Origin: Rudanella lutea DSM 19387
GTDB taxonomy: Bacteria; Bacteroidota; Bacteroidia; Cytophagales; Spirosomataceae
Direction: 5' to 3'
Length of the DNA: 64,000 nt
Assembly: GCF_000383955.1 (NCBI RefSeq)
Contig: NZ_KB913013.1
Span: forward strand, 5,475,694-5,539,693
A model generated the notes under the pieces. It saw nothing but the letters and a program-made list of their open reading frames with translations, was not told the DNA's origin and searched no databases. Made by a program: the position numbers and the translations under genes. Positions 15,934 to 63,770 of this stretch are shown piece by piece (position 1 is the stretch's first letter; each line of letters begins with the position of its first letter).

Positions 15934-16563
15934 ATGTTTATTGAACCGGCCTCCCGGCGCGAACCCCCTCACCTCCGAACCGGCTGGATCGAGGTGATTT
16001 GTGGGTCTATGTTCTCCGGAAAAACCGAGGAACTGATCCGCCGACTTAACCGTGCCCGCATTGCCCGACAGCACGTCGTTATTGTTAAACCCGGTATCGA
16101 TACCCGTTACCACGAGGCCGATATTGTCTCGCATAACTCGCTCTCTATTTCGTCGATTCCTGTACAGAAACCCGCCGATATCCTCCTGCATACCGGCGAC
16201 TGCGACGTGGTGGGTATCGACGAAGCGCAGTTTTTCGACAGCACCATTGTCGACGTGTGCGAGCAGCTCGCCAATAGCGGCAAACGGGTTATTGTGGCGG
16301 GTCTCGACATGGACTTTGCCGGGAAGCCCTTTGGTTGCATGCCGCAGCTCATGGCTATTGCCGAATACGTGACCAAGGTGCATGCTATCTGCGTGGTTTG
16401 TGGCGACATTGCGCATTATTCGTACCGGCTGGTGCCCTCGCAGGCGCGGGTTTTGCTGGGCGAAACTGATAGCTACGAAGCCCGCTGCCGCCGTTGTTTT
16501 CATCTGGGCCCCGAGGCTGTTCATCTCGTGAGCGGAACCGGTCGGCAGATGTTTAATGAGTAA
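15934..16563 (+). CDS. tdk: Thymidine kinase (type II, zinc-binding)
   Basis: The enzyme phosphorylates thymidine to dTMP in the salvage pathway. This 209-residue product is the usual length. It shows the P-loop GSMFSGKT at residues 24-31, the DEAQFF motif that holds the catalytic acid, [12 protein letters not shown], and a structural zinc site built from CVVCG and CRRC near the C-terminus. A small upstream frame (15712-15927) ends 7 bp before it but is not convincing as a gene. No TAnnTTTG box was found in the 221-bp spacer. Confidence 0.95.
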
Positions 16564-16572
16564 TAAGAAAAG

Positions 16573-16600
16573 GGAGGATGGAGAAGGGAGGAAGAGAAAA
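16573..16600. repeat. Purine-rich 7-bp tandem array (4 units)
   Basis: Four purine heptamers (GGAGGAT, GGAGAAG and relatives) follow the tdk stop codon. They contain an in-frame ATG at 16578 that would lengthen the next protein by ten charged residues. That start is disfavoured because it would put charged residues before the signal peptide. Confidence 0.55.
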
Positions 16601-16607
16601 AAAGTGG

Positions 16608-18869
16608 ATGCTATCAACCTATTTGTGCTTAGTACTCACTGCTCACTGCTCACTGCTCACTGTTCACTGTAAAGCTCAGCCCGGCACCTGGCAAACGCAT
16701 TTCAGTTACCGCTCGGCGCGGTCGGTGGCGGTACTTGGACCCGGCGTGTTTGCGGCTACCCGTAATGGCCTGTATCGGTTCGATAAATCAACGTCCGAAA
16801 TCCGACTCCTGACCCGCGACAATGGTCTGAGCGATGTGGGCGTGAGCCAACTGCTGGCCCTGCCCGACCAACAACGACTGATGCTCGTGTACCGGTCGGG
16901 AAACATTGATTTTCTGGCCGTCGCCCCCGACGGCACACCGGGCGAGGTGCTCAATGTAAACACAATTGTCGCATCCAGCCGCATTCAACCGGCATTTCGG
17001 GGGATCAACCACATCAACCGGCAGGGCAATACAGCCTACCTCAGCACTGATTTTGGCGTCGTCGTGTTCGACCTGGTCCGCAACGAAATTCGCGATACGT
17101 ATTTTAGTCCTACTACGGGCGGTACACCGGGGCCGGTGCTGATGACGGCTACCCTGGGCGATAGTCTGTATGCGCTTACCCGACCTAATCCGTTTGCCGT
17201 TGCCACGGCGATTCGGGCAGTGCGGCTGGCTTCCACGGTCAACCTTGCCGACCCAGCCAATTGGCGGCTTTCGCCCGCACCCGAAGCGGGTCAAATGACC
17301 GGGCTCGTGGCCGAGGCTAATCGGTTGCTGGTGAGTACGGCTGGCACGGTGGGGCGGGGCGGGGCCATTTTTGCCCGGCCGGTGGGCGGGCAGTGGACGT
17401 CGGTAGCCAGCAGCTCTGGTTTGGCGAGTGTGTTTGCAGGCACGGCCGGCGCCAGTGCGTTTGTGGTCAGCCCCACGGGCACTCCCGCACTTACGGTACC
17501 CGGTACGGGAACGTTGACGAGCCCCTTGCTGCAAGCCCCGGCCGAGGTTGTAGCCGACGGCAACCGGGTTTGGGTGGCCGACACGACAAATGGACTACTC
17601 GACCTGCGTGCCCCCAATCTGGCCACCCGAATTGCGCCCGAAGGCCCTTTTGCCGATACCTTCACCGATGTGCTGGCTTACCCCAACGGTCTGGTGGCTC
17701 TCACCGGTGACAAAGAATTGAGTACGGGCCTGCGAGCTAATCAGCCCCCCGCCGATTTTTACGATGTGCCATCCGGCCGCTGGCAAATAAACCCGGTTGT
17801 GGGCTTGGGGCAATCGTTTAACTCGGCGGCTTACCTGCCCGGTGAAGGGCGACTTTTTTTGGGTGGATACGGGACCGGTTTATGGACACAGGTCGGTTCC
17901 GAGGCCCCCGCGCGGGTCAATTTGCCGGCAATCATCAGCCCTGCCGTTTCGGCCCTGGCTACCGATGCGGAAGGTAACCTCTGGATAGGCACCGGGCAGG
18001 GGACGGCTTCGCTGCACGTGCGCCGGGTCGACGGTCGGTTTGAGTCGTTTGGGCAGTTACGGTCGTTGCCCATTGTGCAGATTGTCCCCGACGATTACGG
18101 AAACCTCTGGCTCCGCCTGAGCTATGGGGTCATGCTTGTTTTCAACCCTAAAACCGGGCAGCAACGCTATTTTTCCAGCGCACCGGGCGATGGTAATTTG
18201 CCCGGCAATACCGTGACGGCCCTGACCCGCGACCGAAATGGGTTTATCTGGGTGGGTACGGAGCGGGGCGTCACCGTGTTCGACGATCCGGCGGGGGCAT
18301 TTACCGGCAATGTGTCGGCCAACGCGCCTATTTTCGAACGTCGGCGGCTACTGGCTACCGAGGCTATCACGGCCATGACGGTCGACGGGGGTAATTTTAA
18401 ATGGATTGCTACGGCGTCGGCCCTGTACCGGTTTGGTCCCGACGGTACCTCACTCGACGCCCGGTTTACTCCGGCCGATAGCCCTCTGCCTACGGCGGAC
18501 ATCAACGCGCTGACCGTAGAGCCGGTGAGCGGGCGGGTGTTTGTCTCGACTTCGGGTGGTTTGGTGTCGTACGGCGGTCTGGCTACCGAACCTGCCGACG
18601 CCTTGACGGGCATCACCATTTTCCCGAACCCCGTACGGCCCGATTACACCGGTTTGGTGAGTATCCGGGGGCTTACCGATAATGCCGTGGTAAAAATTCT
18701 GGATGCGGGCGGGATTCTGGCATACGAGACCCGGGCGCAGGGGGGAACGGCTACGTGGGATCTGTCGGATTATCGCGGACGGCCTGCCCAAACGGGCGTT
18801 TATTTGGTTGTGGTCATAGGTGCCAACGGGCAACAGGGCATTGCCGGCAAAGTGGCGGTGGTCCGCTGA
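16608..18869 (+). CDS. PorZ-like type IX secretion protein: beta-propeller protein with C-terminal sorting domain
   Basis: A 753-residue exported protein with a signal peptide (YLCLVLTAHCSLLTVHCKAQ). Two groups of propeller repeats follow, beginning GTWQTHFSYRSARSV. The later blades carry two-component-regulator-propeller motifs such as LTRDRNGFIWVGTERGV and EGNLWIGTGQG. The C-terminus (ITIFPNPVRPDYTG, then GVYLVVV) is a type A type IX sorting-domain-like module. Length, double propeller and tail fit PorZ, which in Porphyromonas helps attach anionic LPS to T9SS cargo. The family assignment is by architecture, so a different surface propeller protein remains possible. The start at 16608 was preferred over 16578. 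Part of the signal peptide is encoded by a 7-bp repeat (16635-16669). Confidence 0.72.
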   Translation: MLSTYLCLVLTAHCSLLTVHCKAQPGTWQTHFSYRSARSVAVLGPGVFAATRNGLYRFDKSTSEIRLLTRDNGLSDVGVSQLLALPDQQRLMLVYRSGNIDFLAVAPDGTPGEVLNVNTIVASSRIQPAFRGINHINRQGNTAYLSTDFGVVVFDLVRNEIRDTYFSPTTGGTPGPVLMTATLGDSLYALTRPNPFAVATAIRAVRLASTVNLADPANWRLSPAPEAGQMTGLVAEANRLLVSTAGTVGRGGAIFARPVGGQWTSVASSSGLASVFAGTAGASAFVVSPTGTPALTVPGTGTLTSPLLQAPAEVVADGNRVWVADTTNGLLDLRAPNLATRIAPEGPFADTFTDVLAYPNGLVALTGDKELSTGLRANQPPADFYDVPSGRWQINPVVGLGQSFNSAAYLPGEGRLFLGGYGTGLWTQVGSEAPARVNLPAIISPAVSALATDAEGNLWIGTGQGTASLHVRRVDGRFESFGQLRSLPIVQIVPDDYGNLWLRLSYGVMLVFNPKTGQQRYFSSAPGDGNLPGNTVTALTRDRNGFIWVGTERGVTVFDDPAGAFTGNVSANAPIFERRRLLATEAITAMTVDGGNFKWIATASALYRFGPDGTSLDARFTPADSPLPTADINALTVEPVSGRVFVSTSGGLVSYGGLATEPADALTGITIFPNPVRPDYTGLVSIRGLTDNAVVKILDAGGILAYETRAQGGTATWDLSDYRGRPAQTGVYLVVVIGANGQQGIAGKVAVVR
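16635..16669 (+). repeat. CTCACTG heptamer repeat (4 perfect + 1 variant) inside a signal-peptide coding region
   Basis: Four exact copies of CTCACTG and a fifth, TTCACTG, run without gaps. They encode the hydrophobic core and end of the signal peptide of the PorZ-like protein. Because 7 is not a multiple of 3, gaining or losing one unit would shift the frame. Confidence 0.9.
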
Positions 18870-22300: not shown

Positions 22301-23221
22301 ATGATACCCGCTCAACAGCCATCGCCCCTGCAACGTATCGACGTGCCGCTGACCCGGTCGCTACCGGTGCAGCTTTACCTCAAACGCGACGATCTGCTGC
22401 ACCCGCTGGTGTCGGGTAATAAGTGGCGGAAGCTGAAATACAACTTGTTAGCGGCTAAACAGGCGGGCTTAGAGACCATGCTCACCTTTGGCGGAGCCCG
22501 CTCCAATCACCTGTATGCGACGGCTGCGGCCGGGCAATTGTTCGGGTTTCGGACAATCGGGGTGGTGCGGGGCGATGAACCTGCCTTGTTGCAGTCGCCT
22601 ACGCTTCAGTTTTGTGCGTCGGCCGGTATGCACCTGCATCCGGTGAACCGGGCGGCTTTTCGCGAAATAGAATCGCCCGAATTTCTGGACGAGTTGCAGA
22701 AGCTGTACGGCCCTGCCTATGTGTTGCCCGAAGGCGGTACCAACGAAGAAGCCATCCGGGGCGCGGCCGAAATTATGCCCGAACTAATGGAGCAGCTTGG
22801 TACAGCGCCCGATGCCGTCTGCTGTGCGGTGGGTACGGGCGGCACCGTTGCGGGCCTGGCCCGGTCGGCACCCCAGTCGACCAGGGTGCTGGGGTTTATG
22901 GCCCTCAAAGGTTGGCATCCGCCCCTCGATCCGGCCTACCCGAATCTACACTACCTGACCGATTATCACTTTGGCGGGTACGCCAAAACCCGCCCCGAAC
23001 TGCTTCAGTTCATGGCCGATTTTGAGGCCCAAACCGGTGTGCTGATTGAGCAGGTGTACACCGCCAAGATGCTCTACGGCCTGATCGACCTGGCACGACG
23101 AGGGTTTTTCGAACCCGGCGCCCGGGTGGTGGCTATCCATACCGGCGGGTTACAAGGACGCCTGCCGCAGGATCGCCTGTCGCAGGGGCGCCTGCCCGCA
23201 GTGACTCCACCTAATGTGTAA
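22301..23221 (+). CDS. PLP-dependent ACC deaminase / D-cysteine desulfhydrase-like enzyme
   Basis: A fold-type II PLP enzyme of about 306 residues. The motif LYLKRDDLLHPLVSGNKWRK contains the PLP-binding lysine (in SGNKWRK). GGARSNHLYATAAAG binds the cofactor phosphate side, and AVGTGGTVAGLA is the Gly-rich loop. Members act on 1-aminocyclopropane-1-carboxylate, D-cysteine or related amino acids; the residues distinguishing these cannot be judged here. The track of open frame begins at a TTG at 22262, but the ATG at 22301 gives the standard N-terminus. The last 25 residues contain a short internal repeat (GRLPQDRLSQGRLP) absent from typical members. Confidence 0.85.
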   Translation: MIPAQQPSPLQRIDVPLTRSLPVQLYLKRDDLLHPLVSGNKWRKLKYNLLAAKQAGLETMLTFGGARSNHLYATAAAGQLFGFRTIGVVRGDEPALLQSPTLQFCASAGMHLHPVNRAAFREIESPEFLDELQKLYGPAYVLPEGGTNEEAIRGAAEIMPELMEQLGTAPDAVCCAVGTGGTVAGLARSAPQSTRVLGFMALKGWHPPLDPAYPNLHYLTDYHFGGYAKTRPELLQFMADFEAQTGVLIEQVYTAKMLYGLIDLARRGFFEPGARVVAIHTGGLQGRLPQDRLSQGRLPAVTPPNV

Positions 23222-23227
23222 CGGAGT

Positions 23228-24181
23228 TTACCGGGTGGCTGCGCGTTTGAGACGGTCGTTCACAGCCCGACCCAAGCCCTCAGCCGGTAACCGTTGGGCG
23301 TAGATACGGGTAAGAGGCAGTTGGTCGAGGGCGCGCAGGTACGCAAACAGATTGCGGGCGGCTTCGGTCACGGTACCTCCAGGAGCCAAAATTCGCTGAT
23401 TTTCGAGCGGAATACCCGGCAGCGGTTGGGTAAACACAAGCGCGCCGGTTTGTTCGTCAACGTCGGCTGGTAGCTCATCGGGGTTGAGCAGAAAAACCGG
23501 TTTGCGCGGGGCATAATGACTACTGAGCATCCCGGGCGCCTGTGGGTTTGAGGTCGAATGGTCGCGAACGGTGAGCGGCCCCACGAGGGCGGTCAGTTGT
23601 TCGAGCGCCATACCACCGAGCCGGTACACAGTAGGTTGCTCCTTTTCAAATCCGATGATGGTCGATTCGACACCGATGCCGCAGGGGCCGCCATCGAGCA
23701 CGTACGGAATCTGATCGCCCAGCTGATCGGCTACGTGGGCCGCCGTAGTGGGGCTAATATAGCCAAACGGATTGGCGCTCGGCGCGGCTAATGGGAAATC
23801 GAGCAGACTGAGCAGACGTAACGTGAGTGGGTGGTTCGGAATGCGAATTGCCACGGTTGGCAACCCCGACGTGGTCAGGTCGGGCACCAACGCCCGCTTG
23901 GGCAGTAGCAGCGTCAGCGGGCCGGGCCATACGGCCTCGGCAAGTTGACGGGCCGCATCGGGCAGGTGGGTCACGTACCGGTTTACCTTATCAAGGGTGT
24001 CGGTATGGACAATGAGGGGGTCGAAGGCGGGCCGGTTTTTAACCGTAAAAATGCGGAGTACCGCATCAGGATTGAGCGCATTACCCGCCAATCCGTACAC
24101 CGTTTCGGTCGGAATTCCGACCACATCACCCGCTTCTAAAAATGCCTTCGCAGCTAAACAATCCGTCCCGATTTGTGCCAT
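23228..24181 (-). CDS. L-threonylcarbamoyladenylate synthase (TsaC/Sua5/YrdC family)
   Basis: This enzyme makes threonylcarbamoyl-AMP for the universal t6A37 tRNA modification. The 317-residue protein has the YrdC domain with PTETVYGLAGNA, KNRPAFDPLIVH, WPGPLTLLLPK and PSANPFGYISPT (about residues 20-190). It continues into a Sua5-type C-terminal domain including PGMLSSHYAP. This is the long Sua5 form, not the ~190-residue TsaC form. The ATG at 24181 is the correct start: the 63 residues upstream in frame are translated heptamer repeat DNA (SYLLTP repeated). Its stop lies 6 bp from the convergent PLP enzyme gene. Confidence 0.92.
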   Translation of the reverse strand: MAQIGTDCLAAKAFLEAGDVVGIPTETVYGLAGNALNPDAVLRIFTVKNRPAFDPLIVHTDTLDKVNRYVTHLPDAARQLAEAVWPGPLTLLLPKRALVPDLTTSGLPTVAIRIPNHPLTLRLLSLLDFPLAAPSANPFGYISPTTAAHVADQLGDQIPYVLDGGPCGIGVESTIIGFEKEQPTVYRLGGMALEQLTALVGPLTVRDHSTSNPQAPGMLSSHYAPRKPVFLLNPDELPADVDEQTGALVFTQPLPGIPLENQRILAPGGTVTEAARNLFAYLRALDQLPLTRIYAQRLPAEGLGRAVNDRLKRAATR

Positions 24182-24190
24182 AATTACCGG

Positions 24191-24198
24191 CAAAGATA
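24191..24198 (-). promoter_or_regulatory. Probable -7 promoter box for the Sua5 gene
   Basis: TATCTTTG on the minus strand lies 9 bp upstream of the ATG at 24181, implying a very short leader. The heptamer array starts 4 bp further upstream, so it would cover the -33 region. Confidence 0.5.
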
Positions 24199-24201
24199 GT
24201 A

Positions 24202-24299
24202 TAGGATTGAGGAGATAGGAGATAGGAGTGAGAAGATAGGAGGTAGGAGTGAGGAGGTAGGAGTGAGGAGTGAGGAGATAGGAGTGAAGAGATAGGACG
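24202..24299. repeat. 14-unit purine heptamer array, (T/G)AGGAG(A/T/G)
   Basis: Fourteen heptamers run without a break, alternating mainly TAGGAGT, TAGGAGA and GAGGAGT types. All 98 bases are in register. Three units make 21 bases, which is why the minus strand reads as an open, repeated SYLLTP peptide. It occupies the promoter-side flank of the Sua5 gene. In the 416-bp gene-free stretch 24182-24597, nothing else is visible beyond this array, the adjoining hairpin and a pyrimidine array. Confidence 0.92.
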
Positions 24300-24312
24300 G
24301 GGCTGCCCGGCG

Positions 24313-24363
24313 GTGAGGAGTTGCTGACGCGTAAGCAATACTCATGCGTCAGCAACTCCTCAC
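24313..24363. repeat. Perfect 18-bp inverted repeat (hairpin)
   Basis: GTGAGGAGTTGCTGACGC at 24313-24330 is exactly complementary to 24346-24363 across a 15-nt loop. There is no T tract, so it is not a typical terminator. It sits between two heptamer arrays of opposite strand bias, whose units blend into its arms. Confidence 0.9.
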
Positions 24364-24389
24364 TTCTCACTTCTCACTTCTCACTTCTC
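24355..24389. repeat. Pyrimidine heptamer array (5 units, CTTCTCA type)
   Basis: Five CTCCTCA / CTTCTCA / CTTCTCT heptamers run from the right arm of the hairpin. On the opposite strand they resemble the purine array at 24202-24299, so the two arrays are inverted around the hairpin. From 24390 to 24597 I see no gene or clear signal. Confidence 0.85.
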
Positions 24390-24597
24390 TTCCTTCCTCA
24401 TTTTCTCCTCCGGGTACCTGCCCGTTTGCCGTTTTTGGGTGTAAAGCGCTCGGGGAATGATTAAAAATTCGGGATTTTGAGCGGTGAGCAAAAAAATAAG
24501 CGGGTATTCGCCAACTTAGTCGGCAATCTTGCCCTGAAAGCATTAAAATTGGTTAACGTTGTTCTTTTGATTGAGTAAACCAGAATCGTCTTCCTAC

Positions 24598-26343
24598 ATG
24601 GACATTCCACAAATTAAAAAGGCCCCCGTCGAGTACGACGTCGCGATCGTCGGGTCGGGCGCTGGCGGTGGTATGGCGGCTTATATGCTGGCCAAAGCCG
24701 GAGCCAAAGTTATCCTGCTTGAGGCAGGTGGGTATTTTGACCCCGCCGATCCTAAATACATTACTCAGTTGAAGTGGCCTTACGAATCGCCCCGGCGGGG
24801 TGCGGGTACTACCCGGGCGTTTGGTGACTTCGATGCGGCCTGGGGTGGCTGGGATATTGATGGCGAACCTTACTCGGCGAAGCCCGGCACCGAATTTCAC
24901 TGGTTCCGGTCGCGGATGCTCGGTGGGCGGACCAATCACTGGGGGCGTATCTCACTCCGTTTCGGACCCGATGACTTCCGGCGGGGCTCGCTTACGGGTG
25001 TAGGCGACGATTGGCCAATTACCTACGAAGACCTCAAGCCGTTCTACGACCGCTGCGACAAAACGCTCGGCTTGTTTGGAACCAACCTGCCCGACTTTCC
25101 GAACGAGCCCGATGGCTACTTCCTGCCTCCACCGAAGCCTCGTTTGCATGAGCTGTTGCTCCAGAAGGCGGGCAAAAACGCGGGTGTGCCGGTTGTTCCT
25201 TCGCGCTTGTCGATTCTGACAAAACCCATCAACAATGAGCGTGGGCAGTGTTTCTACTGCCATCAGTGCGGGCGGGCGTGTCAGGCATACGCCGACTTCT
25301 CATCGTCGTCGGTACTGTGTATTCCGGCTATCAAAACTGGCAACGTAACGCTCATTAACGGCGCTATGTGCCGCGAGGTACTTACCGATCCGCAAACGGG
25401 TCTGGCTACGGGTGTTAGCTATGTACACACAGGCACGTTGCAGGAGCATACGGTACGCGCCAAAGCGGTTATGCTTGGAGCAAGTGCCTGCGAATCAGCG
25501 CGGATTCTCCTCAACTCAAAATCGTCGCGGTACCCCAACGGTCTGGCCAATGGCAGTGGCGTGGTGGGTAAATACCTTAATGACTCAACAGGAGCCTCGC
25601 GTGGTGCGTTTGTGCCTGCTCTAATGGACCGTGTTCGTTACAACGAAGACGGCGTAGGCGGTATGCACGTGTTTACGCCCTGGTGGCTCGACAATAAGAA
25701 ACTCGATTTCCCACGTGGCTACCACATCGAGTACGGCGGTGGCATGGGTATGCCGGGCTACGGTTTCGGCTCAGGGATTGAAAATACACAGGCCCTGGAG
25801 CCCGGTCGGACCCGGCCGGTAGGTGGTTACGGTGCTGGTCTGAAAGATGACTATCGCCGTTACTACGGTGCTTATGTGCACATGGCGGGTCGGGGTGAGC
25901 CGGTTCCACGCGAGGACAACTACTGCGAAATCGACCCGAACAAGGTAGACAAATACGGTATTCCGGTACTTCGGTTCAACTACAAGTGGTCTGATTACGA
26001 AGTAAAGCAGGCGAAGCACATGCAGGATACCTTCGAGGAAATTATCCACGCGCTGGGCGGTATCCCGATGGGACCGAAGCCGGGCCCGAATACCAACCAC
26101 GGATACGGTCTGGAAGCACCCGGTAAGATTATTCACGAGATTGGTACGGTTCGGATGGGCAACGACCCGAAGAAGTCGGCCCTGAACAAGTTTCAGCAGG
26201 CACACGAGTGTAAGAACCTGTTTGTAGTCGATGCGGCTCCGTTTGTTTCGCAGGGCGACAAAAACGTAACCTGGACTATCTTGGCCAGTTCGATGCGCAC
26301 GAGCGAATACCTGATTGACGAGGTGAAGAAGAAGAATATCTAA
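24598..26343 (+). CDS. GMC-type oxidoreductase, gluconate 2-dehydrogenase large-subunit-like
   Basis: A 581-residue FAD enzyme. The Rossmann motif [21 protein letters not shown] is at the N-terminus and [15 protein letters not shown] is the second FAD-contact motif. The C-terminus has the GMC histidine/asparagine region, with [13 protein letters not shown] as the closing segment. A cysteine cluster, [12 protein letters not shown] (near residue 222), lies mid-chain as in some dehydrogenases of the gluconate/sugar oxidising group. No signal peptide is seen, so export may depend on the Tat-like partner subunit encoded at 26842. The frame extends to a TTG at 24571; the ATG at 24598 was preferred. 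The substrate is probably a sugar or polyol. Confidence 0.87.
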
Positions 26344-26349
26344 AAACAA

Positions 26350-26377
26350 GTTTTCTGTTTCCAGTTTTCTGTTTTCA
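26350..26377. repeat. Heptamer array upstream of the four-helix-bundle gene
   Basis: Four heptamers of GTTTTCT / GTTTCCA type form two 14-bp units. A related array in inverted orientation closes the other side of the gene (26803-26830). Confidence 0.85.
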
Positions 26378-26386
26378 GTTAGTTGC

Positions 26387-26827
26387 ATGGCCACCATTCG
26401 TCGGTTCGAGGATTTGACAGCCTGGCAAAAAGCCCGCTGGTTTTCAAAAGCGGTGTATGCTGTAACCCGAAACCGAACCTTCTTGGATGACCCCGATCTG
26501 AAACGTCAGATCAGGCGCGCGAGTGGTTCAGTGATGGATAACATTTCGGAAGGCTTTGGTCGGGGAGGTAGAGTTGAGTTTGTGCAGTTTCTGGGAATAG
26601 CCAAAGGCTCTTTGGACGAGTCTAAATCGCAACTCTACAGAGCACATGATAACGACTACATTGATCAGACGACGTTTGACGATCTGTACGCCCAAGCTGA
26701 TGAAGCTGGTCGGGTGATTGATGGGCTGATGAGCTATTTGAAAGAGTCTGACGTAAAAGGACGTAAATTTCAGCGAGATAGCGCATCACAGCCGGAGGAA
26801 CTGAAAACTGTAAACCGAAAACTGTAA
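26387..26827 (+). CDS. Four-helix-bundle protein (23S rRNA intervening-sequence protein family)
   Basis: A 146-residue all-helical protein. FEDLTAWQKARWFSKAVY, LKRQIRRASGSVMDNISEG, FGRGGRVEFVQFLGIAKGS and ELESQL-like SKSQLYRA strings are diagnostic for the S23/four-helix-bundle family. Members are encoded in 23S rRNA intervening sequences of some bacteria and as stand-alone genes in Bacteroidota; their function is unknown. Here it interrupts the operon of the GMC oxidoreductase and its small subunit. Its last nine residues (ELKTVNRKL) are encoded by a heptamer array, so the repeat has been captured as coding sequence. Transfer as a small cassette is an inference. Confidence 0.9.
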   Translation: MATIRRFEDLTAWQKARWFSKAVYAVTRNRTFLDDPDLKRQIRRASGSVMDNISEGFGRGGRVEFVQFLGIAKGSLDESKSQLYRAHDNDYIDQTTFDDLYAQADEAGRVIDGLMSYLKESDVKGRKFQRDSASQPEELKTVNRKL

Positions 26828-26830
26828 ACT
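26803..26830. repeat. Heptamer array at the 3' end of the four-helix-bundle gene (inverted copy)
   Basis: Four heptamers of GAAAACT / GTAAACC type make two 14-bp units. The complement (GGTTTACAGTTTTC) resembles the unit at 26350-26377, so the two arrays form inverted flanks. The array overlaps the last codons and the stop of the gene. Confidence 0.85.
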
Positions 26831-26841
26831 TCTACAGAAAA

Positions 26842-27471
26842 ATGAAACGCAGAGATACACTTAAGGCAATCGGTTTGAGTGGTTTCGGTTTGGCCGTAGG
26901 GCCAGTCGAGGCTGCGGTGCCACCACCAACCCCCGCGGTGAAAATACCCGGCGGTCGGCAAAAATTTGAAGCAGAGCGCGATGCGAAGCTGATGGCTGAG
27001 AAGTTCTTCACGCCACAGGAGCTGAAAACCGTGACCCTGCTGTGCGACATCATCATTCCGGCCGACAAAAAGTCGGGGAGTGCGTCGCAGGCGGGTGTAC
27101 CGGCCTTTATCGAGTTTATGATGAAGGATCAGCCCGCCAACCAGACCCCCATGCGGGGTGGTTTGCGGTGGCTCGATAACCAGTGCCGCAAGCAATTCGG
27201 TAAGCCATTTGCCGAGTGCACGGGTGAGCAGCAGATCAAGATGGTTGATCAGATCGCTTACCCGAAGCAGGCGAAACCTGAGATGAGCCAGGGGGTTGCG
27301 TTTTTCAACATGATGCGCAACATGACGGCTACCGGTTTCTGGACCTCAAAAATGGGTATTCAGGATCTGGGCTACGTCGGCAACGTCCCCAATCAATGGG
27401 ATGGTGTACCCGAACCAGTGCTTAAACAGTACGGCGTGAACTACGACGCGCACGTGAGCGAGAAAAAATAA
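26842..27471 (+). CDS. Gluconate 2-dehydrogenase subunit 3 family protein
   Basis: This 209-residue protein begins with MKRRDTLKAIGLSGFGLAVG, a twin-arginine-like export signal. The body (FFTPQELKTVTLLCDIIIPAD, then VPAFIEFMM and RWLDNQCRKQFGKPF) is characteristic of the small subunit of gluconate 2-dehydrogenase-like complexes. This subunit accompanies GMC flavoproteins and is thought to help export and stabilise them. It belongs functionally with the gene at 24598 even though a four-helix-bundle gene lies between. Two T-tailed palindromes follow its stop. Confidence 0.87.
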   Translation: MKRRDTLKAIGLSGFGLAVGPVEAAVPPPTPAVKIPGGRQKFEAERDAKLMAEKFFTPQELKTVTLLCDIIIPADKKSGSASQAGVPAFIEFMMKDQPANQTPMRGGLRWLDNQCRKQFGKPFAECTGEQQIKMVDQIAYPKQAKPEMSQGVAFFNMMRNMTATGFWTSKMGIQDLGYVGNVPNQWDGVPEPVLKQYGVNYDAHVSEKK

Positions 27472-27492
27472 GCAATCTTCTTGTGCAGTACC

Positions 27493-27534
27493 AGAGATGA
27501 TATCTCGTTTCGAGAGATGTCATCTCTTTTTTTT
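27493..27534 (+). terminator. Palindrome family copy A with T tract
   Basis: A 35-nt palindrome (AGAGATGATATCT... ending GATGTCATCTCT) is followed by eight T. It can terminate the dehydrogenase operon. It belongs to the dispersed AGATGACATCT family and forms a local tandem with copy B: both are preceded by TTGTGCAGTRCC. Confidence 0.82.
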
Positions 27535-63703: not shown

Positions 63704-63746
63704 CTGAAGAGATGTCATCTCGTTGGAAAAGATGACATCTCTTCAG
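63704..63746. repeat. Palindrome family copy F
   Basis: 43 nt. CTGAAGAGATGTCATCT pairs with the complementary right arm (63731-63746) around CGTTGGAAAA. It stands between the TIM-barrel gene and the GH88 gene, 22 bp upstream of the former's start. Confidence 0.9.
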
Positions 63747-63770
63747 AAAAGATACTTGAAAAAAGGCCTC

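Follow-up and report, generated by a model that had tools for sequence, protein, structure and literature searches.

Tandem heptanucleotide repeats in cyanobacteria are known as STRR, and the SDR of Nostoc (Elhai et al. 2008) are reportedly tiny structured mobile repeats of 21-27 nt, often in tandem heptamers. In the P6b stem of the trnL intron, 7-nt repeats occur on both sides (TDNGATT and NNTGAGT); units are gained and lost, and the whole stem can be replaced (PMC4476775). TAACTGA direct repeats, described in Beggiatoaceae, form intergenic heptamer arrays that also occur in some Cyanobacteria and five Bacteroidetes (PMC4679880). The 23S rRNA intervening sequences (IVS) that carry an S23p ORF, for example in Leptospira and Coxiella, have a terminal stem cut by RNase III and tandem heptamers beside the ORF, in strain-variable number, and have been called selfish (PMC4990558). 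The authors of that study doubt that S23 is produced in Coxiella, and its function is given there as unknown.

The window, by which we mean the whole 64,000-nucleotide stretch of DNA analysed, contains a composite element of heptamers and a hairpin at 24202-24389, in the gap between divergent genes for Sua5 and a GMC oxidoreductase. Its parts and nearest neighbours are:

23228-24181, minus strand: ORF for a Sua5-type protein, the neighbouring gene
24191-24198, minus strand: TATCTTTG, candidate Bacteroidota -7 promoter box by resemblance of its sequence
24202-24299, plus strand: left arm, 14 purine heptamers of AGGAGNN type, read base by base
24300-24312, plus strand: G+C-rich spacer of 13 nt between array and hairpin, GGGCTGCCCGGCG
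24313-24363, plus strand: hairpin, a perfect 18-bp inverted repeat with stem core TTGCTGACGC and a 15-nt loop, member of a dispersed family
24355-24389, plus strand: right arm, five pyrimidine heptamers (ACTCCTC and four ACTTCTC), complement GAGAAGT/GAGGAGT

An earlier note on this DNA had described these three repeats, and its account of them holds. The 14 heptamers are in register, with imperfect units at the edges (first TAGGATT, last TAGGACG; 74-87% matches by TRF). The 18-bp inverted repeat is exact, with arms at 24313-24330 and 24346-24363. The complement of the five pyrimidine heptamers does resemble the first array, and the first of them (ACTCCTC) falls within the right hairpin arm. 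Between the two arrays, 33 nt can pair in inverted orientation at 82% complementarity; hence the inversion of the composite is real, yet imperfect. This pairing, together with a predicted RNA fold for 24195-24400 of -96.3 kcal/mol (z -7.07; 0 of 200 shuffles equally good), supports the claim that the parts form one composite inverted element. Rfam gave no match at gathering scores within 23000-27500. The array starts 20 nt upstream of the Sua5 ATG (minus strand, 24181-24179); TATCTTTG, which resembles the Bacteroidota -7 box, lies between the two, 3 nt from the array. A longer Sua5 ORF, to 24370, merely runs into the heptamer array. Sua5 has a match in 39 of 39 genomes, own included, several of them with a weak paralogue only. 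In another genus, a GTTTGTG-type mirrored hairpin (L228, in G006) also lies directly upstream of Sua5, as judged by eye.

A second element, which lies 2 kb from the composite, has a gene between its heptamer arms:

26344-26841, plus strand: second element of the class, inverted AACTGAA-type heptamer arms round an S23 gene
26349-26380, plus strand: left heptamer arm
26387-26827, plus strand: S23 / 23S rRNA IVP family four-helix-bundle protein (PF05635, TIGR02436)
26799-26830, plus strand: right heptamer arm, overlapping the ORF end

We consider it likely that the element at 24202-24389 belongs, as a non-coding form, to a class of mobile, IVS-like small insertable elements, which consist of an array of heptamers (sometimes octamers), a core and a mirrored array, the core being either a short hairpin or a single S23 (PF05635) gene. 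The earlier note had read the element as a local structure by the Sua5 promoter. It does adjoin the Sua5 start, but that reading was too narrow: the composite is one of numerous dispersed elements, and members of the class are gained, lost and exchange their cargo. The element is not a local oddity; it belongs to a large class found in the gene gaps of Bacteroidota and cyanobacteria.

How does this locus compare with the described systems? Like the 23S rRNA IVS as presented in PMC4990558, the class has an S23-family ORF within stem-forming terminal inverted repeats, with heptamers by the ORF. Unlike those IVS, it occupies gaps between protein genes, its arms are heptamer arrays of many different units, and it includes hairpin forms that have no ORF. 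The composite itself is bounded by stem-forming inverted repeats, as the S23 loci are; its core has no S23 ORF, which its neighbour at 26344-26841 has, and it sits in the Sua5/GMC oxidoreductase gap and not in a 23S rRNA gene. With cyanobacterial heptamer repeats and P6b, as far as PMC4476775 characterizes them, the composite shares variable-number tandem 7-nt units on both sides that pair into a stem. P6b differs in that it is a single intron site, whereas here the elements are dispersed between genes, have hairpin or S23 cores and belong to another phylum; what PMC4476775 says on the P6b repeats makes no link to S23. The TAACTGA repeats, in the description given by PMC4679880, have one fixed unit, are direct apart from one indirect case in the main genome and are interpreted as a possible translational signal. 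The host is not cyanobacterial, as a gene junction shared with Larkinella (Bacteroidota) indicates, and cyanobacterial S23 elements with similar arms exist. The composite is a counterpart, in Bacteroidota, of the cyanobacterial heptamer repeats. SDR are not known to have a protein gene or mirrored arms as a defining trait.

The repeats of the composite recur throughout its own genome (G000) and in relatives, which were represented by one genome per species; several comparisons were made by eye, as marked. The pattern AGGAGNNAGGAGNNAGGAG, which describes the left-arm heptamers, occurs at 17 genome places (53 overlapping matches versus 10 for a reversed control). The 18-nt hairpin arm, with up to 3 mismatches, has 18 forward and 14 reverse genome sites, against one of each for the reversed control, and both arms together, with up to 2 mismatches, occur at nine dispersed places. 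The seven other places with both arms that we read carry purine heptamers on one flank and the mirrored units on the other, with an interruption at L006. Within the family, 21 of 200 genomes and 5 of 36 genera have the stem TTGCTGACGC...GCGTCAGCAA, at up to 60 sites per genome (in G056), and its reversed control is absent from all 200. Forty stem copies from five genomes are mostly set in mirrored arms of other heptamers: TACGATG- and GGATTTG-type units in G056 and G010, and AGGAGTT-type units in G175 and G169. By eye, the arms are without heptamers in 6 of the 10 copies in G068. Heptamer arms, mostly of AGGAG type, also surround other hairpins or short loops (L011, L012, L031 and L037). Together, these observations make stem and heptamer look like swappable parts of one plan. 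The stem, and sometimes the loop, is common to dispersed copies.

Such dispersal raises the question of whether a RAYT (Y1) transposase moves the hairpin as a palindrome of REP/BIME type, in which case the heptamers would be secondary. REPs follow a tetranucleotide rule, and GGAG stands at the foot of this hairpin. The palindromes are dispersed in intergenic gaps, as described for REP, REPIN and BIME sequences with RAYT (PMC6006769, PMC3733652), and Y1_Tnp genes occur in all six genomes searched. However, only 2 of 23 Y1 genes have TTGCTGACGC within ~1.7 kb, the four Y1 genes of the own genome are flanked by other palindromes (by eye), and S23 elements with heptamer arms mostly lack the TTGCTGACGC hairpin and carry S23 and no Y1 gene. 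Set beside the REP systems as those two papers portray them, the present elements differ in their heptamer arms, their association with S23 and the lack of a Y1 gene linked to the hairpin. With the stem near 2 of 23 Y1 loci, a RAYT/Y1 origin of the hairpin is unsupported, and we regard it as very unlikely. The four own Y1 genes (L061-L064; G000 C1 4583292, 4132599, 5438816 and 3481896) have repeated flanking palindromes of their own, as judged by eye.

The gene that does sit inside such arms is S23; terminal repeats in common with a transposase-bearing relative, a trait of IS elements and MITEs, were not found. All five S23 genes of the own genome lie within mirrored arrays (scores 33-55), with a different unit in each and a period of 8 in two, as judged by eye. 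We compared the flanks of 76 S23 loci (71 from named genomes and 5 own), of which three with short flanks were dropped. Inverted flanks exceeded the 99th percentile of 2920 random segments in 59 of the remaining 73 loci, and lag-7 similarity of the flanks was 15.2, versus 9.9 in controls. In a joint test for inversion and period, 46 of 72 S23 loci passed, compared with 2 of 202 small ORFs, both of them S23 genes; one Y1 gene among the 202 had inverted flanks, without the heptamer period. Among 30 further S23 loci from seven relatives, 26 scored above 25, with longer flanks and a cut-off carried over from the 73-locus test. In a phylum-wide set of 30 loci, drawn from top matches, 15 passed on score and 11 in the joint test, so the link to arms is weaker or more decayed there. 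S23 itself is present in 235 of 296 sampled genomes of the phylum Bacteroidota (221 above the curated cut-off) and in 0 of 14 controls. Two S23 loci, L304 (G001) and L305 (G175), have AGGAG-type arms like those at 24202-24389, and in a third, L333 (G068), TTGCTGACGC lies within an S23 arm.

The S23 protein is related to a solved structure, 2gsc (E 7e-8), a four-helix bundle; we know of no catalytic role for it. The fold of the S23 element as RNA has a z of only -2.5. S23 lies in the sense orientation to both co-directional neighbours at 62 of 69 loci (with six edge loci and the L058 copy left out), and at 47 of 57 in a second set, from which three edge loci were removed. This orientation is consistent with expression from the host operon and a role at the RNA level, or with selection for either, and does not separate them. 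A search of 50,697 phage records for S23 gave no match at E 1e-5. Viral contigs contained eight pattern stretches and no relative, in a search able to pick up close relatives only; by eye, the three viral contigs in which the hairpin pattern occurs resemble coding sequence and lack heptamer arms. Among open-access titles and abstract openings, we found no paper that connects S23 genes located outside rRNA to mirrored heptamer arms, which is weak evidence of absence.

We also considered copying via reverse transcription, in a DGR-, retron- or group II-like manner, because S23 resembles the DGR protein Avd. The likeness of PF05635 to Avd, an accessory protein of DGRs, is noted in PMC10053308, and the sense orientation of S23 would suit such a route. 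Nonetheless, RVT_1 has no match in G000, G001, G002 or G010 and two in G056. A reverse transcriptase as mover is unsupported, RVT_1 being missing from four of these five genomes, and copying of this kind seems to us highly improbable. Y1 and reverse transcriptase were the candidates examined, and no transposase or other mover was identified for the class.

Is there evidence that elements of the class come and go? The junction between the GMC oxidoreductase gene and a gene beginning MKRRDT... is filled by an S23 element here, in G001, in one G006 copy (the other being unreadable) and in three Larkinella. The same junction is empty in G002, G003 and G056, where the two genes overlap by ATGA; it is an 18-bp gap in G010, and both copies in G020 have a different inverted repeat of ~100 bp. 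For the element at 24202-24389, no clean empty site was found: by eye, the upstream neighbour of Sua5 differs in G002 and G003. One of 32 own elements tested had both flanks in the 395 kb fetched from G002, and this AGGAG-type hairpin element (L030) is replaced there by a few bases. Between the own genome and G001, 21 places differ in length, of which we read 15, and two more separately. By eye, two heptamer-type inverted elements are present in G001 only (g1 559944 and 680575) and one in the own genome only (5508213); others are unlike the class. The elements at one site differ between the two species:

16563-16674, no strand assigned: another element site, with an array of five CTCACTG units (16635-16669) facing a purine-rich stretch that does not clearly mirror it (by eye)

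At this site (genome 5492256), G001 carries a different inverted heptamer element, as judged by eye.

Cyanobacterial plasmids provide filled and empty versions of single sites. Mirrored heptamers are present at six of the eight plasmid S23 loci read (L388, L390, L391, L392, L394 and L395) and absent, by eye, from L389 and L393. At site A, three records are filled and six (three of them read) are empty by coverage, at 97.5-98.0% identity; one further record, at 91.5%, has an apparent S23 remnant with heptamers (by eye). At site B, two records are filled and three, on reading, are empty. Eight of nine records were read for the C sites: C1 is filled in three and empty in five, and C2 is filled in one, with seven lacking the element. 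Target duplications are GTAA (4 bp) at site A and ATG (3 bp) at C2, with none clear at B and C1 and a possible TTA in G001. At site C1, the S23 element of the Nostoc N6 plasmid pNPM1 (L406) is ~180 bp longer than that of L395 and carries a short annotated S23 gene; this is perhaps a nested insertion.

Elements that stay in place also change. Of 14 own elements tested against G001, seven had both flanks in the fetched region, and all seven, S23 element included, are present there; five differ in length. The earlier note had proposed a check of relatives and unit counts, and the composite is indeed found in G001 at the same place, with other unit numbers: it is 196 bp long here and 133 bp in G001, with 14 versus ~4 units in the Sua5-side array and 5 versus ~9 on the other side (by eye). 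The 15-nt loop is exactly inverted in G001 relative to the flanking genes. Between the Trichormus and Scytonema plasmid S23 elements, one arm differs by two units. At the S23 site shared with G001, the flanks are 94-95% identical and the S23 proteins 51%. In the set compared, the proteins nearest to that of G001 are those of Larkinella at the same site (53-56%) and L117, which is located elsewhere (55%), and the protein nearest to that of the window is a paralogue in the own genome (66%). These identities indicate that S23 cargo has been swapped at one site. Members of the class are thus gained and lost at single gene junctions, their unit number varies, one loop inverts and one core has been exchanged.

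The earlier note had also suggested slippage after hairpin extrusion. The difference in unit number between species agrees with this, and the exactly inverted loop fits hairpin-based copying, but arm identities in the own genome speak against mirrored copying: within a copy, the two arms are no more similar to each other than arms taken from separate copies (0.77 vs 0.83). Arms reach 94% in 0 of 10 copies in G068, 2 of 8 in G175 and 16 of 20 in G056 and G010. Arm homogenisation is strong in G056/G010, weak in G175 and absent in G000 and G068.

Slippage and template switching could, in principle, account for these elements without any mobility, if they yielded mirrored arrays independently anywhere and ectopic gene conversion spread the hairpin cores. 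Changing unit numbers and the many different heptamer units suit this explanation, and the inverted loop and the near-perfect mirrors in G010 and G056 fit template switching. On the other hand, armed S23 genes are present or missing at single junctions of near-identical plasmids, S23 is the sole ORF type among 202 small ORFs to pass the joint test, and dispersed copies have the same stem and sometimes the same loop. We therefore consider an origin without mobility unlikely.

It is also conceivable that these are terminators or mRNA-processing hairpins under selection, whose spread is incidental. In a census of 460 kb of the own genome, 193 kb of G001 and 395 kb of G002, with genes called by a simple ORF method, 35 inverted repeats passed a period rule (period 7 or 8); by eye, a few of them are not clear heptamer arrays. 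Several occupy nearly the whole intergenic gap. The own genome, whose 460 kb contain 38 long inverted repeats of any kind, contributed 12 of these, and many of its remaining repeats resemble ordinary terminators (by eye). One 6-mer-block shuffle had 0, compared with those 38, which agrees with the expectation that the pattern would exceed chance. Gene ends are favoured: 15 of the 35 lie between co-directional genes, 9 between convergent and 2 between divergent genes, versus 486, 161 and 159 for all neighbouring gene pairs in the same census. The counts are small, however, with eight within called ORFs and one at an edge. They would allow many heptamer elements to act like terminators, though not obviously the one at 24202-24389, which lies between divergent genes. 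That element folds strongly as RNA, but no T-run follows its stem, and other members of the class are cleanly absent in relatives. Selection as terminators or processing signals is, in our view, quite an unlikely explanation of the class. In nine genomes that lack S23 (a tenth, G220, offered no stretch), 360 kb contained 0 heptamer inverted repeats, and in ten S23-rich genomes, 400 kb contained six, some of them low-complexity, with 6 of the 10 genomes having none. This suggests, and only suggests, given a small and confounded comparison, that heptamer elements are fewer where S23 is lacking.

How might small insertable elements with an S23 or hairpin core behave? Transcribed arms would pair into a long stem with the core looped out, as in the 23S rRNA IVS. 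If so, the host transcript could be cut or shielded there, and insertion would be tolerated in gaps and operons. Heptamers would be gained and lost by slippage, and arms and loop may be copied or flipped through template switching in the hairpin. Least certain of all, S23, expressed in sense from the host operon, may help the elements to move, and the hairpin-only forms may be non-autonomous relatives of the S23 elements. A broader proposal, which we put forward tentatively and with some doubt, is that the Bacteroidota heptamer stem-loops, the cyanobacterial heptamer repeats and the 23S rRNA IVS form a single superfamily of mobile elements that lack a transposase and are defined by structure rather than sequence. 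Mirrored heptamer arms of any kind would suffice in this superfamily, Avd-like S23 would be the sole self-encoded factor and hairpin-only forms would be its parasites.

The filled and empty plasmid pairs make S23 mobility directly testable, and they connect a curiosity of rRNA with heptamer repeats. There is also a warning here: heptamer stems between genes may be insertions and not conserved regulatory signals.

Other repeats occur in the same genomes. Two larger insertions (G001 C28 588192-588492 and G000 C1 5595858-5596082) have AACGTGAGTTA-like ends and a TTCGAC(A/G)GGCTCAG core, and each is missing at that place in the other of the two species; insertions with AACGTGAGTTA ends look like a MITE-like family separate from that of the heptamer elements. 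Palindromes with GATGACATCTCGT, at 27493-27530 and 63706-63753 of the window and at G001 C28 673178, seem to form another family of dispersed repeats. A second hairpin family, CAGTACTGGACATT..., accompanied by sequence of period 7-8, occurs at G000 C1 5508213 and 5574030 and at G001 C28 549407 and 680575, once nested in AATGAAT-type arms.
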